Origin: Bacteroidota bacterium | Lineage (GTDB): Bacteria; Bacteroidota; Bacteroidia; Chitinophagales; Chitinophagaceae | Length of the DNA: 55,022 nucleotides | Direction: 5' to 3' | Assembly: GCA_018971025.1 (NCBI GenBank) | Contig: JAGWVE010000008.1 | Span: forward strand, 1-55,022 | Shown: positions 33,740 to 38,798 of the stretch, piece after piece | Numbering within the stretch: the first letter of the stretch is position 1 | Layout of the letters: each line of letters starts with the position of its first letter | Notes under the pieces: generated by a model | Databases searched by the model: none | Seen by the model: the letters and a program-made list of their open reading frames with translations, nothing else | Told to the model about the DNA's origin: nothing | Translations under genes and position numbers: made by a program

Positions 33740-33919
33740 ATGTCAATTATCAAACAAGTTAAAGAGTATCTCTTTATTTCAAAAAGAGACCCCAATGAGC
33801 CACGCACTCAGTGGATGAAATACATGCATGGAATGAACCGTATTTCACTTTTTATGTTTTTGATTGCGGTAATTATAATCCTGTTTAAGACGCTGATTTT
33901 ACCCCTCATGAATAAATAA
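33740..33919 (+). CDS. Small single-pass membrane protein (59 aa), possibly DUF6728
   Basis: ATG 33740 to TAA 33919 encodes 59 residues: a basic, Pro-containing cytosolic part ([19 protein letters not shown]) followed by one hydrophobic helix (residues about 35-49, [15 protein letters not shown]). The pattern of K-x-Y-x-x-x-x-KRDP followed by HGMNRIS is what I recall for the DUF6728 small-protein family of Bacteroidota, but I cannot confirm the family. The final 21 bp overlap the 3' end of lpxB on the opposite strand. Function unknown. Confidence 0.7.
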
Positions 33920-35029
33920 TTTAGGGCCAGCTAGTTCCATGATTTCTTTGGCAACTTTTGCAGAAGCGTCTCCGCCACCTGCTGCTAGTAATGCATGTAA
34001 AGATTGGTAGTTATCCATTACTTCTTTTCTGTTCGCTTCATTTTCTGTGATATTGCGAAGTGCTGCGGTTAATTGCTGCTCCGTTAATTTTTCTTGAATA
34101 ATTTCTTGGACAATTTCTTTGTCCATTATCAGGTTCACTAAAGAAATGAATTTTATTTTTACGAGCCATTTTGCAATTTGGTATGAAAACTTGCTGGTTT
34201 TGTAGCACACCACTTCTGGTACTTTAAAAAGCGCTGTTTCTAATGTAGCAGTACCGCTTGTAACAAGTGCGGCATCTGCAACACTGAGTAAGTCGTAGGT
34301 GTTATTTTTAACAAGTGCTACATTGGCGTAGCCCATTAAAAAGCGGTTGTAAAAAGGGGCGTCTTGCCCTGGTGCTTGCGCCACCATAAAAGTGTAGTCC
34401 GGAAAATGTGGCGTTACACTTAGCATGATGGGAAGCATTTTGATAATCTCTTGTTTTCTACTTCCTGGTAATAATGCAATTACTTTTTTATTGTCTGTTA
34501 CAAGTGGGGTATTGCTTTTGAAGGATTCAATGACCTGTAATAGTGGATGACCTACATAGGTAACATCCCAATTCCATTTATTTTTAAAATATTCTTTTTC
34601 AAAAGGAAGTATGCAAAACATTTTATCAATGCACAGCTTCATCTTTTTAACCCTGTTTTCTTTCCATGCCCAAACCTGCGGTGCGATATAATATACAACC
34701 CTGAATCCTTGTTTTTTTGCCCATTCGGCAATACGTAAATTAAAACCAGGGTAGTCTACAAGTACGAGTACGTCGGGTTGCCAAGCATCAATATCTTGTT
34801 TGCAAAACCGGATGTTTTGTAAAATGGTGGGTAGGTTTTTGATCACCTCTAAAAAGCCCATAAAGGCAAGATCTCTATAATGTTTTACAAGGGAAGCCCC
34901 CGCCTGTTGCATTAAATCACCTCCCCATGCCTTAATACTGGCGGCAGGGTCCAGCTTTTTAATTTCTTTGATGAGGTTACTGCCGTGTAGGTCTCCGCTG
35001 GCCTCACCAGCAATAATATAGTACTTCAT
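33899..35029 (-). CDS. lpxB: Lipid-A-disaccharide synthase
   Basis: The 376-residue glycosyltransferase has the LpxB landmarks [18 protein letters not shown] at the start, [55 protein letters not shown] and [21 protein letters not shown]. It joins UDP-2,3-diacylglucosamine and lipid X to form the lipid A disaccharide on the inner leaflet of the inner membrane. Here it stands apart from other lpx genes. A TAAATTGC element at 35039-35046 (minus strand) is a possible -7 box 9-10 nt before the ATG. The BlaI-type operators lie just beyond, so the repressor might influence this gene too. Confidence 0.95.
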
Positions 35030-35072: not shown

Positions 35073-35128
35073 AACTAAAAAAATAGTTAAAAAACTAAAA
35101 ATTTAGTTGTTAAACTAAAAAATTAGTT
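35073..35128. promoter_or_regulatory. Triple palindromic operator AACTA-N6-TAGTT, phased at 20 bp
   Basis: Three 16 bp palindromes lie at 35073-35088, 35093-35108 and 35113-35128, each AACTA-N6-TAGTT with perfect arms. The second (AACTAAAAATTTAGTT) and third have longer symmetric arms. Their centres are exactly 20 bp apart, close to two helical turns, so dimers would lie on one face of DNA. They end just before a -7-like box (TAGCATTG, 35130-35137) of the BlaI-type gene. They are most simply the repressor's own operators and also lie near the lpxB promoter. Confidence 0.8.
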
Positions 35129-35151
35129 TTAGCATTGTGTTTCAAATGTAA

Positions 35152-35520
35152 ATGTGTATGAAACCATTAACAAAAGCAGAAGAGCAAGTGATGCAGCAGG
35201 TATGGAAATTATCTAGTGCCTATTTAAAGGATATTGTAGAAGCATATCCTACACCAAGACCGCATACCAATACGGTGGCAACCCTTGTTAAAATTTTGGT
35301 AGACAAAGGATACATTGGCGTAGAGGCCATGGGTAGGGTGCACCGATATTTTCCTTTAGTGAGTAAAGAATCTTATTCTACCAATTCTATTAAATCTTTG
35401 GTGGACGCTTATTTTGAAGGCTCATTTAGTGAAGCTGTTTCTTGCATGTTGCAGCAAAAAGAAATCAGTGTTCAAGAATTGGAACTCTTATTAAATCAAC
35501 TGAAACAATCAAAAAAATAA
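35152..35520 (+). CDS. BlaI/MecI/CopY-family transcriptional repressor
   Basis: The 122-residue protein has the winged-helix BlaI fold: LTKAEEQVMQQVWKL, then the recognition helix region PHTNTVATLVKILVDKGYIG with wing VEAMGRVHRYFPLV, and a C-terminal dimerisation region (SLVDAYFEGSFSEAVSCML) that in BlaI contains the site cut by BlaR1. Such repressors bind palindromes as dimers and are released when the partner protease cleaves them. Three matching palindromes lie upstream, and the M56 protease-like receptor gene starts 3 nt after the stop. ATG 35158 is an alternative start. It is likely autoregulated. Confidence 0.92.
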   Translation: MCMKPLTKAEEQVMQQVWKLSSAYLKDIVEAYPTPRPHTNTVATLVKILVDKGYIGVEAMGRVHRYFPLVSKESYSTNSIKSLVDAYFEGSFSEAVSCMLQQKEISVQELELLLNQLKQSKK

Positions 35521-35523
35521 GTC

Positions 35524-37719
35524 ATGTATCCAACACTTTATTACTTGTTACAAGTGCTTGTATGTAGTGCCGTTTTGATGGTTTATTATTTACTCGTACT
35601 GCGCAATAAAAAATTTCATCAATACAACCGGTTTTATTTACTTGGCGTTGCGGTAGTGTCTTGGATCGTTCCGCTCATTAAAATAGTTTGGGAGCAGCAG
35701 CATGCTGGTGTTAGGCAAGTAGATTTGTTAACAGTTGTTGCAGCAAGTAATTCTGAAATAGAAGCCATGGTTGCTTCAAAACAAGAATCGGTTGATTGGC
35801 TTTCATTGCTTCCAAATTTGTATGTTGGGGTATCTATTTGTTTGGCAATTGCGATGATTGTTTCATTGTATAGGATTTATAAAATTTATACAACACACGA
35901 ATGTCGAAATCTGCAAGAGTTTTATTTAGTAATGACGCGCGTAAAGGGGACGCCCTTTTCTTTTTTTAGTTATATTTTTTGGAATGCCGAAATTGACATC
36001 CAAACACCTGCCGGCAAGCAAATTTTGCAACATGAGTTAACGCATGTGAAGCAGTTTCATTCTATTGATAAAATAGGTATGCAATTGATTTTGATTGTTG
36101 GCTGGTTCAATCCTTTCTTTTGGCTGCTCAGAAAAGAGCTGCACATGATTCACGAATTCATTGCCGATAAAAAATCGGTAGAAAACGGGGATGCTGCTAG
36201 CTTGGCTCAAATGTTGTTGACTACGGCTTATCCCGGACAACAATTTTCACTCACCAATCCATTCTTTTTTTCACCAATTAAACGAAGATTAAAAATGCTT
36301 ACGACCAACCAAAATCCAACATTTAATTATGTTAGAAGGCTTATTGCACTTCCACTTTTAGCGGTGGTTGTTTTACTATTTGCTTTTAGAGCAAAAGAAA
36401 ATACGAATACTGTTGCGCCACTTTCAAAAACCTACACTGTTGTGTTAAATGCAGGACATGGTGGAGAAGATAAAGGTGCTATTGCAGCAGATGGAACAAC
36501 TGAGGCTCAGTTAACCCTTGCCATTGTACATCAAATGCAGGCCCTCAACAAAAATGATAAAGTTAAACTGGTATTAACACGTGATGCAGATGTTACACAA
36601 TCTGTGGTAGCAATTTCTGAATTCGCAAATGCACAATCTCCAGATTTATTTGTTTCAATTCATGTAAACAATGTAGTTGGTTCTACTGCTAAGAAAGCTA
36701 AATATGAAGGTGCTGAAATTTATATGGCTGCAAAAAATAAAGCAGTTAATTATGACGCTAATTACACATTGGCAAATCATTTAGCAGCATCATTGCAAGA
36801 AGTTGGTACGCCATTTAATGGAGTAAAAACAAGAGACATGGGCATTTGGGTGTTACAGGCTGTTAAATGCCCGTCTGCAATTATTGAAACGGGTTACTTA
36901 AGTAATAGTAAAGACCTTACTAAAATGAAAGATGCGGGTTACCAACAAAAGTTGGCAGCAAGTATTTTAAAAGGGATTGAAAATTATTTAAGCAATCAAG
37001 AGCGTGGAACTAACAATGTTGTCATTGATACCGTTAAAAAAGCAATCTTTGTTCAAGGCTATAAAATTTCACCAGAAGATACTTTAATAGCTTCTAAAGA
37101 GAAGGGTAGTAGTATCGTTATTAAAATGGATGGGGCCGGTGCTAAAACAAATGGACAAAAGCCGATGTATGTTTTAGATGGAGAAGTTATATCTGAATCA
37201 ATAATGAGTGTGATTGATCCAAACAAAATTGAAGCCATCAATGTATTAAAAGGTCCATCTGCAACAGCACTCTATGGCGATAAGGGTAAAGATGGCGTTA
37301 TACTCATTACAACCAAAAAGGGAAATGCCGGAAAAGATGCTAGAGAACCTATTGTTGTACAAGGTTATAAAATAGACAAAAGTAAGTTTGAAGTTGTTGC
37401 AGATACTATTAAAGCAGATGTAAAATCTATTTTGATCAAGTCTAACAATTTAGCAGATGCCAAATCAATGTCAAAGAACATGGATGAGGTTACTGTTTTG
37501 CAAGGAAATTCGATTGTCATTAAAACGGAAGGGAAAAAAGTGTCTGCCCTTATTTTTGTAGATGGCGAGAAAAAAACACAAAAAGAAATGGATGCTATGT
37601 CTCCAGATCAAATAAAGTCTGTTGAAATATTAAAAGGCGATGCAGCCATTAAAGCATATGGTGCAGAAGCTAAAGATGGTGTTATCAAAATTACCACCAA
37701 GAAAAAAGTAAACTTATAA
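35524..37719 (+). CDS. M56 (BlaR1-like) metalloprotease receptor fused to Amidase_3 and TonB-plug-like repeats
   Basis: This 731-residue membrane protein starts with helices at about 1-26, 35-55 and 95-118. An M56 zinc protease domain follows, with HELTH (H170, E171, H174) and EFIAD (E211, D215), and then a helix at 273-290. The extracytoplasmic part contains an Amidase_3 domain (303-490) with zinc ligands H312, E327 and H380 and catalytic E455, all intact. Residues about 508-600 and 610-728 are two repeats that start VQGYKI and end in YG-x-x-x-KDGVI-x-ITTKK, similar to TonB-receptor plugs. BlaR1 normally ends in a penicillin-sensing domain; here an amidase stands in its place. It forms an operon with the BlaI-type gene. 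Confidence 0.85.
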   Translation: MYPTLYYLLQVLVCSAVLMVYYLLVLRNKKFHQYNRFYLLGVAVVSWIVPLIKIVWEQQHAGVRQVDLLTVVAASNSEIEAMVASKQESVDWLSLLPNLYVGVSICLAIAMIVSLYRIYKIYTTHECRNLQEFYLVMTRVKGTPFSFFSYIFWNAEIDIQTPAGKQILQHELTHVKQFHSIDKIGMQLILIVGWFNPFFWLLRKELHMIHEFIADKKSVENGDAASLAQMLLTTAYPGQQFSLTNPFFFSPIKRRLKMLTTNQNPTFNYVRRLIALPLLAVVVLLFAFRAKENTNTVAPLSKTYTVVLNAGHGGEDKGAIAADGTTEAQLTLAIVHQMQALNKNDKVKLVLTRDADVTQSVVAISEFANAQSPDLFVSIHVNNVVGSTAKKAKYEGAEIYMAAKNKAVNYDANYTLANHLAASLQEVGTPFNGVKTRDMGIWVLQAVKCPSAIIETGYLSNSKDLTKMKDAGYQQKLAASILKGIENYLSNQERGTNNVVIDTVKKAIFVQGYKISPEDTLIASKEKGSSIVIKMDGAGAKTNGQKPMYVLDGEVISESIMSVIDPNKIEAINVLKGPSATALYGDKGKDGVILITTKKGNAGKDAREPIVVQGYKIDKSKFEVVADTIKADVKSILIKSNNLADAKSMSKNMDEVTVLQGNSIVIKTEGKKVSALIFVDGEKKTQKEMDAMSPDQIKSVEILKGDAAIKAYGAEAKDGVIKITTKKKVNL

Positions 37720-38010
37720 AAACCACTTAACGGCTAAGGACGCTAATGCATACAAACAAGTTGCAATAAATACGCCCTTAGCCGTTTTGTCTTTTTGCGC
37801 ATTGATATAGAGCGTAAAAACAACAGCGTTGCATATGAGGCAAAGGCTTACAATGGCCGTTAGTAAAGACTTTTGCAGTATTAGTACTTCAAAAAATTCG
37901 GAAAGTGTAAAACGGCTAAATTTATAAAAGTAATAGCCAAATAATCCTACAATTGGCGTTAAACAACCAAGTACAATGCCAAGTTTTAAATCGTCTCTTT
38001 TGAATATCAT
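37714..38010 (-). CDS. Small three-helix membrane protein of unknown function
   Basis: The 98-residue protein from ATG 38010 (MIFKRDDLKLGIVLG) has three hydrophobic helices: residues about 9-27, 45-64 and 77-95. I do not recognise a characterised family. The ATG overlaps the surE stop codon in an ATGA arrangement, so it is probably translated with surE; ATG 38019 is an alternative start. Its 3' end overlaps the M56 gene by 6 bp in the converging direction. Confidence 0.7.
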   Translation of the reverse strand: MIFKRDDLKLGIVLGCLTPIVGLFGYYFYKFSRFTLSEFFEVLILQKSLLTAIVSLCLICNAVVFTLYINAQKDKTAKGVFIATCLYALASLAVKWFL

Positions 38011-38798
38011 AATTTCCATTTTGTTTCTAAGGTCTTTTTAAGACCATAGTGTGTAAGGTCAAATTGAACAGGAACCACACTTACATAATTGTGTTTGAGT
38101 GCCCATGAATCAGTGTCTTTACTAGATTCTAAATTATTGAATTCGCCAGTAAGCCAGTAATATTTTTTACCGTGTGGATCTTTACGTTGGTCAAATTTTT
38201 CTTCGTATTTGGCATAGGCCTGTCTACAAATTTTAATCCCTTTAATTAATTTTTCATCCACTGCAGGGATATTTACATTGAGGCATAAATGTTTGTCAAG
38301 TGGTTTACCTGCAAGCATTTTTTCTACAATGATGCGTACGTATTTTTGTGCACCTGAAAAGTCAGCGTCGATGCTATAATCGAGTAATGAAAATCCGATA
38401 CTAGGAATACTTTCGATAGATGCTTCTAATGCCGCCGACATGGTGCCTGAATAAATCACATTAATGGAGTGGTTGGCTCCATGATTGATGCCACTTAAGC
38501 AAATGGTAGGCTTTTTATGCAAAACAACGTCTACTGCTAGTTTAACACAGTCTACAGGGGTGCCACTGCAACTATAGGTTTCTACCCCTTCAAATACATT
38601 TACTTTTTGGAGGCGTAAAGGGTGCCCAATGGTAATGGCGTGACCCATGCCACTTTGGGGCTTATCTGGGGCCACTACAACAATGCGTCCTAGGCCTTTA
38701 ACGGCTTCTACCAGGGCTTTGATGCCTGGGGCCGTAACGCTGTCATCGTTGGTGATTAATATGGTTGGGATTTCCTTTGTTTTTGCTGATTTTGCCAT
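38007..38798 (-). CDS. surE: 5'/3'-nucleotidase SurE
   Basis: The 263-residue protein from ATG 38798 (MAKSAKTKEIPTILITNDDS) has the SurE metal site ITNDDSVTAPGI, with Asp-Asp ligands, SGxxHGAN (SGINHGANHSINVIYSGTMS) and the VVAPDKPQSGMGHA segment. The usual NDDG is NDDS here. The enzyme dephosphorylates nucleoside monophosphates and is linked to stationary-phase survival. The longer frame to 38813 begins at a TTG that lies next to a TATCTTGC promoter-like box (38803-38810), so it is not used. It is divergent from the XRE/S24 regulator. Confidence 0.92.
   Translation of the reverse strand: MAKSAKTKEIPTILITNDDSVTAPGIKALVEAVKGLGRIVVVAPDKPQSGMGHAITIGHPLRLQKVNVFEGVETYSCSGTPVDCVKLAVDVVLHKKPTICLSGINHGANHSINVIYSGTMSAALEASIESIPSIGFSLLDYSIDADFSGAQKYVRIIVEKMLAGKPLDKHLCLNVNIPAVDEKLIKGIKICRQAYAKYEEKFDQRKDPHGKKYYWLTGEFNNLESSKDTDSWALKHNYVSVVPVQFDLTHYGLKKTLETKWKL

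Follow-up and report, generated by a model that had tools for sequence, protein, structure and literature searches.

What would a BlaI-type repressor and its M56 membrane protease be for when the receptor carries a peptidoglycan amidase and plug repeats in the place where BlaR1 and MecR1 carry a penicillin binder? The question is raised by one locus in a window of 55,022 nucleotides (the whole stretch of DNA that was analysed, contig JAGWVE010000008.1 of assembly GCA_018971025.1), which is a contig of a 2.02-Mb Chitinophagaceae genome, 93% complete. The closest copies among named records are those of a Chitinophagaceae bacterium, an uncultured Bacteroidetes bacterium, and a Sediminibacterium sp.

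The initial annotation had described a BlaI/MecI-type repressor gene followed after 3 nt by a single frame joining M56, Amidase_3, and plug-like parts, and both frames were found as claimed (Table 1). The layout also held up in Pfam and NCBIfam searches of the 731-aa protein, with M56, Amidase_3, and plug matches all present. This protein is the sole M56 gene product found in its own, 93% complete genome, which holds two further Amidase_3 genes, both elsewhere.

Table 1. Features of the locus, in positions of the window
Feature	Position	Strand	Remarks
lpxB, divergent neighbour, possible second target	33899..35029	-	43 nt to operator 1
Likely BlaI operator 1, 16-bp dyad	35073..35088	.	
Likely BlaI operator 2	35093..35108	.	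20 bp from operator 1
Likely BlaI operator 3	35113..35128	.	20 bp from operator 2
-7-like box TAGCATTG	35130..35137	+	one base off TAnnTTTG
blaI, BlaI/MecI-type repressor	35152..35520	+	122 aa; alternative start ATG at 35158
M56-Amidase_3-plug receptor, 731 aa	35524..37719	+	frame and Pfam/NCBIfam matches
Membrane helices and M56 protease, residues 1-300	35524..36423	+	
HELTH zinc motif, residues 170-174	36031..36045	+	
EFIAD, third zinc ligand E211, residues 211-215	36154..36168	+	
LTNPF, residues 243-247	36250..36264	+	aligned with BlaR1 autocleavage loop LSHSF
Last membrane helix, residues 268-287	36325..36384	+	
Amidase_3 domain, residues 303-490	36430..36993	+	Pfam, model, structure match
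SusC/RagA-type plug repeat 1, residues 526-606	37099..37341	+	Pfam, NCBIfam
Plug repeat 2, residues about 651-728	37474..37707	+	limits by eye from model and sequence

The repressor is a member of the BlaI/MecI family, with the winged helix and a Penicillinase_R match over residues 6-119 of 122 (Pfam, 3.7e-28), and it matches solved MecI at 5.1e-9. Phenylalanine at the P1' position of the BlaI cut site has been reported to be almost invariant (PMC9834060). The expected position holds Met 99 in the window, and among 89 BlaI proteins it is methionine in 76, leucine in 13, and never phenylalanine; for this reason we file the window BlaI under its sequence family and not as a proven M56 substrate, and cleavage at that bond cannot be taken for granted.

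The 731-aa protein belongs to the M56 (BlaR1-type) protease family. Peptidase_M56 is matched at residues 165-259 (Pfam, 4.8e-10), the BlaR1 membrane and protease fold is present, and the HELTH and EFIAD motifs lie where the initial annotation had placed them. The zinc ligands H170, H174, and E211 correspond to H201, H205, and E242 of BlaR1, with the glutamate about 37 residues on. Of 94 distinct M56 proteins, 93 retain both the HExxH motif and E211 and one has a gap there, and F247, the P1' phenylalanine of a putative autocleavage loop, is present in 91, the other three having gaps. Two relatives (L009 and L010) score 30.8 and 23.7 against a Pfam M56 cut-off of 31, yet they fit the family alignment. 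No Pfam match to a penicillin-binding sensor was obtained at E up to 1, and Amidase_3 and Plug were matched instead. Since no penicillin-binding domain was found, the locus is by membership an M56/BlaI pair and not a BlaR1/MecR1 beta-lactam receptor. With the BlaR1-BlaI and MecR1-MecI systems of Staphylococcus and Bacillus it shares a repressor and an M56 membrane protease, the membrane scaffold, HExxH with a glutamate 37 residues on, the autocleavage-loop phenylalanine, and operators at the promoter of the system. It differs from them in its outer domain, which is an amidase with plug repeats and not a penicillin binder, in the P1' residue of its BlaI, in its Gram-negative host, and in that no clustered operator was found at other genes.

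Amidase_3 is matched at residues 306-487 (Pfam, 3.2e-39), and the residues H312, E327, H380, and E455, to which the initial annotation had pointed, are all in place; the first three are kept in 53 of 53 fused proteins (window included) and E455 in 52, with a gap in the remaining one. Residues 301-490 were modelled at a pLDDT of about 91, the rest of the full model being poor (mean 65.8), and superposition gave TM scores to the target of 0.93 for 4rn7, 0.91 for CwlV (1jwq), and 0.89 for LytH (7tj4). An amidase fold in the 303-490 region, without which the initial annotation had considered its proposal lost, is thus found by Pfam, by the model, and by the match to 4rn7, and with the Amidase_3 fold and the zinc and catalytic residues intact, the domain may be an active enzyme. 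Hydropathy and charge suggest that it is periplasmic, and this predicted topology speaks against the cytosolic placement on which the same proposal might have foundered. Because the linker from the last helix to the start of the amidase is only 12 to 56 residues long (median 40; 51 of the 53 fused proteins measured), the amidase may have its site of action close to the inner membrane and not in the mature wall. The AmiC-like copy in the same genome is interrupted in its profile match, whereas the fused domain has no such interruption. An Amidase_3 fold that lacks an auto-inhibitory part of the AmiA/B/C type is shared with LytH of S. aureus and CwlD of C. difficile, whose activity is reported to depend on the partners ActH and GerS, respectively, the partner of LytH being a membrane protein (PMC8496864); here, by contrast, a single chain combines the amidase with the membrane protein and is tied to a repressor. 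The AmiC-like gene (L168, 3404-4345) was seen to lie between LptD-like and Mce/MlaD-like frames, as named by eye.

The tail was assessed by sequence; Foldseek with the full model returned mostly amidases. Pfam matches Plug at 1e-10, a threshold of E up to 1 giving two stretches and the stricter E up to 0.01 giving one, and NCBIfam places a SusC/RagA signature in two stretches of the protein. The second repeat is the second stretch in both collections, is covered at residues 686-727 by one NCBIfam model, and shows strands in the predicted structure. From SusC/RagA proteins the receptor has the plug domain and not the outer-membrane barrel, ending after the second plug. While the two plug-like repeats of the initial annotation are present here, a plug tail is no fixed part of the layout, being variable among the fused relatives. 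In an alignment of 40 rows (39 of the 50 complete fused proteins and the non-fused L065; a second alignment held 26 of the 50), Plug was matched in 24, TonB_C in 20, and Peptidase_M23 in one, and neither Plug nor TonB_C was matched in 8 of 10 further fused proteins, including L009, L152, and L155, which had been hand-picked for odd-looking tails. Another M56-plug protein (L105, 5989-7938) ends in a Por secretion (type IX) sorting domain, which is odd for an inner-membrane protein, and a stretch similar to it by eye lies at the end of L109.

The candidate operators of the window have counterparts across the related loci. At least two ACTA-N6-TAGT dyads (one mismatch allowed), two or three each, stand upstream of blaI in 90 of 92 loci, which include the window and are related and hence not independent, and a shuffled control (50 shuffles) gave a mean of 0.48 loci and a maximum of 3. 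The spacing from dyad to dyad is 20 bp in 96 of 123 cases. The -7-like box is named after TAnnTTTG, which we take to be the -7 consensus for Bacteroidota; the pattern TAnnTT[TC]G occurs 2 to 3 nt past an operator in 52 of the 92 loci, the imperfect box of the window itself not matching it. In a wider draw of 18 loci (own included), at least two exact-core dyads precede the M56 gene in 15, L155 has one dyad with a mismatch, and none were found at L150, where a blaI gene is present, or in the 100 bases covered upstream of the M56 frame at L153.

Searching the window's own genome, in its 93% complete assembly, for the exact 16-bp operator gave three sites, all at this operon, and the reversed pattern gave five. 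Because of this chance control the number of operators is not unusual; it is their gathering at one promoter that is. Paired bare cores within 4 to 34 bases were found in nine of nine genomes, with all 15 forward matches at the blaI locus and 4 matches in total in the reversed control over the nine, and a stricter paired pattern was found in eight of the nine. A wider BlaI regulon was considered and, on the searches of the own genome, set aside. With two mismatches the operator gives 188 matches in the own genome against 365 in the reversed control, so that weak operators are indistinguishable from noise, and single core dyads number 19 (3 at this operon and 16 elsewhere) against 74 in the control. 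The six outlying dyads inspected among the 16 are all internal to long frames, of which one is gcvT-like by eye; one of the 16 repeats the 14-letter core of operator 2 exactly. The dyads offer a short and clear candidate BlaI operator for Bacteroidota.

Among 80 named loci, some of them cut by contig ends, lpxB is present in 64, surE together with a 101-aa gene in 42, and all three in 40. Across 68 measured loci from all sources, lpxB and blaI run divergently, with 55 to 798 bp between them (median 124). The predicted lpxB start is no more than 50 nt from the first dyad in 31 of these loci, and in some only 2 to 8 nt away. Because the first dyad is often this close, BlaI might also act on lpxB, so that lipid A synthesis would share the switch; dyads are also present at loci where lpxB is far off or was not seen. 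The 101-aa membrane-like protein (window 37714-38019, minus strand) has no Pfam family above cut-off. This chromosomal setting, recurring beside lpxB and in many loci beside surE and the 101-aa gene, bears on whether the pair regulates beta-lactam resistance as BlaR1/MecR1 do. Both proteins are related to the BlaR1/MecR1 and BlaI families, but besides the setting, the absence of a penicillin-binding domain and of any other clustered operator in the 93% complete genome makes a resistance operon very improbable in our view.

How widespread the fusion is was asked with a survey for the M56 and Amidase_3 layout, which proved to be recurrent. Counting 94 distinct M56 proteins (window included; copies of the window locus, L001, L002, L005, and L149, and near-identical rows left out), 53 carry the amidase, 33 are complete without it, and 8 are without it and cut by a contig end, the absence being uncertain for these 8 of the 41 that lack it. 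A profile of the M56-amidase junction gave spanning matches, judged by eye, in at least 6 of 395 Bacteroidota genomes, five of them among the 14 drawn from the window's family (own genome included) and the sixth outside that family but within its class (G177); there M56 and an amidase are joined without plugs, again behind a blaI gene. Across the window's family the spanning match was seen, again by eye, in at least 91 of 394 genomes, and one of these matches contains two stops. Among the loci examined, L050 comes from the cultured Sediminibacterium magnilacihabitans DSM 22423 and L058 from S. goheungense DSM 28323. Conservation across so many independent contigs excludes a chance fusion or a chimeric contig, and the intact residues and purifying selection speak against a decayed one. 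In six pairs drawn from four close relatives, and hence not independent, dN/dS is 0.13 to 0.16 for the amidase, 0.06 to 0.20 for M56, and 0.26 to 0.51 for plug 2.

The fusion is at the same time patchy. On the M56 tree (quick method; L042, L056, and L103 left out), amidase presence changes 17 times, by gain or loss, at least 10 of these changes being forced by starred branches. In a comparison of M56 identity that took in 93 of 106 rows (13 left out), L065 is 80% identical and lacks the amidase, retaining three operators, M56, and plug. In the amidase tree, where branches are long, a single branch has all 57 fused rows on the same side, with support of only 73/75 and recovery in 70% of bootstrap trees; the AmiC-like copy of the window's genome stands apart from them. 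Reading the changes as many losses assumes the single origin of the fused domain, an origin that is weakly supported, and repeated gain or recombinational exchange of the fused amidase may account for the pattern instead. An amidase gene adjoins M56 in ten loci (L064, L068, L075, L079, L083, L084, L085, L087, L089, and L090), two of which, L064 and L068, have the fused domain as well. Substitution of such a neighbour for the missing domain was considered and set aside, the trait requiring just 2 changes on the tree and not one of 7 independent pairs supporting a link. Nor is an origin of the fused domain from these neighbours supported, since the two form separate tree groups (10 neighbours 99/97; fused 73/75). 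In L085 (1-3550) and L010 (2-988), a second M56 gene was seen next to the first.

The initial annotation had taken the amidase for the sensor, and what stands of this is that an intact amidase, accompanied by a BlaI/M56 pair, follows the last membrane helix just where BlaR1 has its sensor, which itself resembles an enzyme (a class D beta-lactamase). It is conceivable, and we entertain it only tentatively, that the last helix shifts when the amidase pocket is occupied by substrate or product and that this triggers M56, hydrolysis being secondary. The amidase as a necessary sensor is disfavoured because the domain is patchy while M56, operators, and tail stay, as the forced changes on the tree and L065 illustrate; moreover, a pure sensor need not retain every catalytic residue. 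Sensing by the tail (plug or TonB_C) or the membrane part, with the amidase only cargo when the switch opens, is a doubtful though possible alternative. It would fit the non-fused relatives, which share M56 and operators and of which ten were scanned, with Plug in all ten at E up to 0.01 (seven above the curated cut-off) and TonB_C in seven, and it would fit the clustered operators being found only at this operon. It fits less well with the 8 of 10 hand-picked fused proteins that have the amidase and neither tail match, or with dN/dS, which is higher for both plug parts than for the amidase in all six pairs.

Because the amidase is patchy, L065 keeps the rest, and the clustered operators serve this operon, we prefer a self-contained, autoregulated switch controlling how much of a membrane-tethered wall amidase is made, a reading that we regard as about evenly poised between right and wrong. 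As the conserved dyads suggest, BlaI would hold expression of the operon low by occupying two or three operators of its own promoter. In BlaR1 and MecR1 the M56 part removes BlaI, and by family likeness the zinc protease of an activated receptor would cut or otherwise remove it here. Its removal would then yield more of the same receptor, including an amidase whose catalytic residues appear intact and which, held close to the last helix, would cut stem peptides off peptidoglycan that is nascent or loose. An additional amidase gene standing beside the M56 gene in one clade would fit this reading, though that link comes to a couple of events on the tree at most. The Plug or TonB_C tail could be a second, variable input or a docking part. 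No clustered operators having been found elsewhere, the receptor is probably the main product of its own switch. The amidase is probably its output, and perhaps also one input among others; that all catalytic residues are kept likewise argues against a mere sensor.

The amidase might also make the ligand itself, its stem peptides being trimmed to gamma-D-Glu-diamino acid, which would release BlaI from DNA. This peptidoglycan dipeptide has been reported to bind BlaI/MecI and to destabilise the DNA complex, and a wall hydrolase has been proposed upstream of that signal (PMC3305447); purified BlaR1, however, is reported to cleave BlaI itself at the Asn101-Phe102 bond, with no other factors present (PMC9834060), and we consider a ligand made in this way unlikely. 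Improbable as well, in our judgement, is a receptor that signals to itself, in which the dipeptide from freed wall peptides or the occupied amidase would inactivate BlaI until loose peptidoglycan is trimmed, with lpxB, and so lipid A synthesis, perhaps sharing these operators. If this were true, wall turnover and outer-membrane supply would be set by one BlaI switch. In Porphyromonas gingivalis, hemin has been reported to alter the expression, and the nearby DNA methylation, of a BlaI-family gene whose neighbour encodes an M56 protein (PMC10470040).

Each domain family of the receptor is known. Bacteroidota M56 proteins with plug or TonB_C tails have the same M56, similar operators, and the same kinds of tail, but not the amidase. 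We found no description of an M56-Amidase_3 protein in the open-access literature, judged mostly by title and abstract and with few subscription papers and no preprints, which agrees with the view of the initial annotation that the layout was undescribed. That view needs narrowing in one respect, as a review of M23 hydrolases mentions proteins holding M23 and M56, with no function given in the passage concerned (PMC9662197); these share with the present receptor an M56 part joined to a wall hydrolase and differ in the hydrolase fold. The BlaR1-type receptors that we found described are penicillin-resistance switches, while here the same frame carries a wall hydrolase, frequently so in one Bacteroidota family, and seems to serve mainly itself. 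Two questions would thereby become testable in one protein, namely what M56/BlaI pairs that lack a penicillin sensor answer to and whether peptidoglycan fragments act on BlaI. One fused relative (L066, 6001-8178) joins M56, Amidase_3, and an M23/LytM-like domain in one chain, its tail weakly resembling DipM (E 0.009). By eye, no M23 zinc ligands were seen in its M23/LytM-like domain; amidase activators of the EnvC type likewise have none, and from its sequence the domain looks like an amidase activator in cis.
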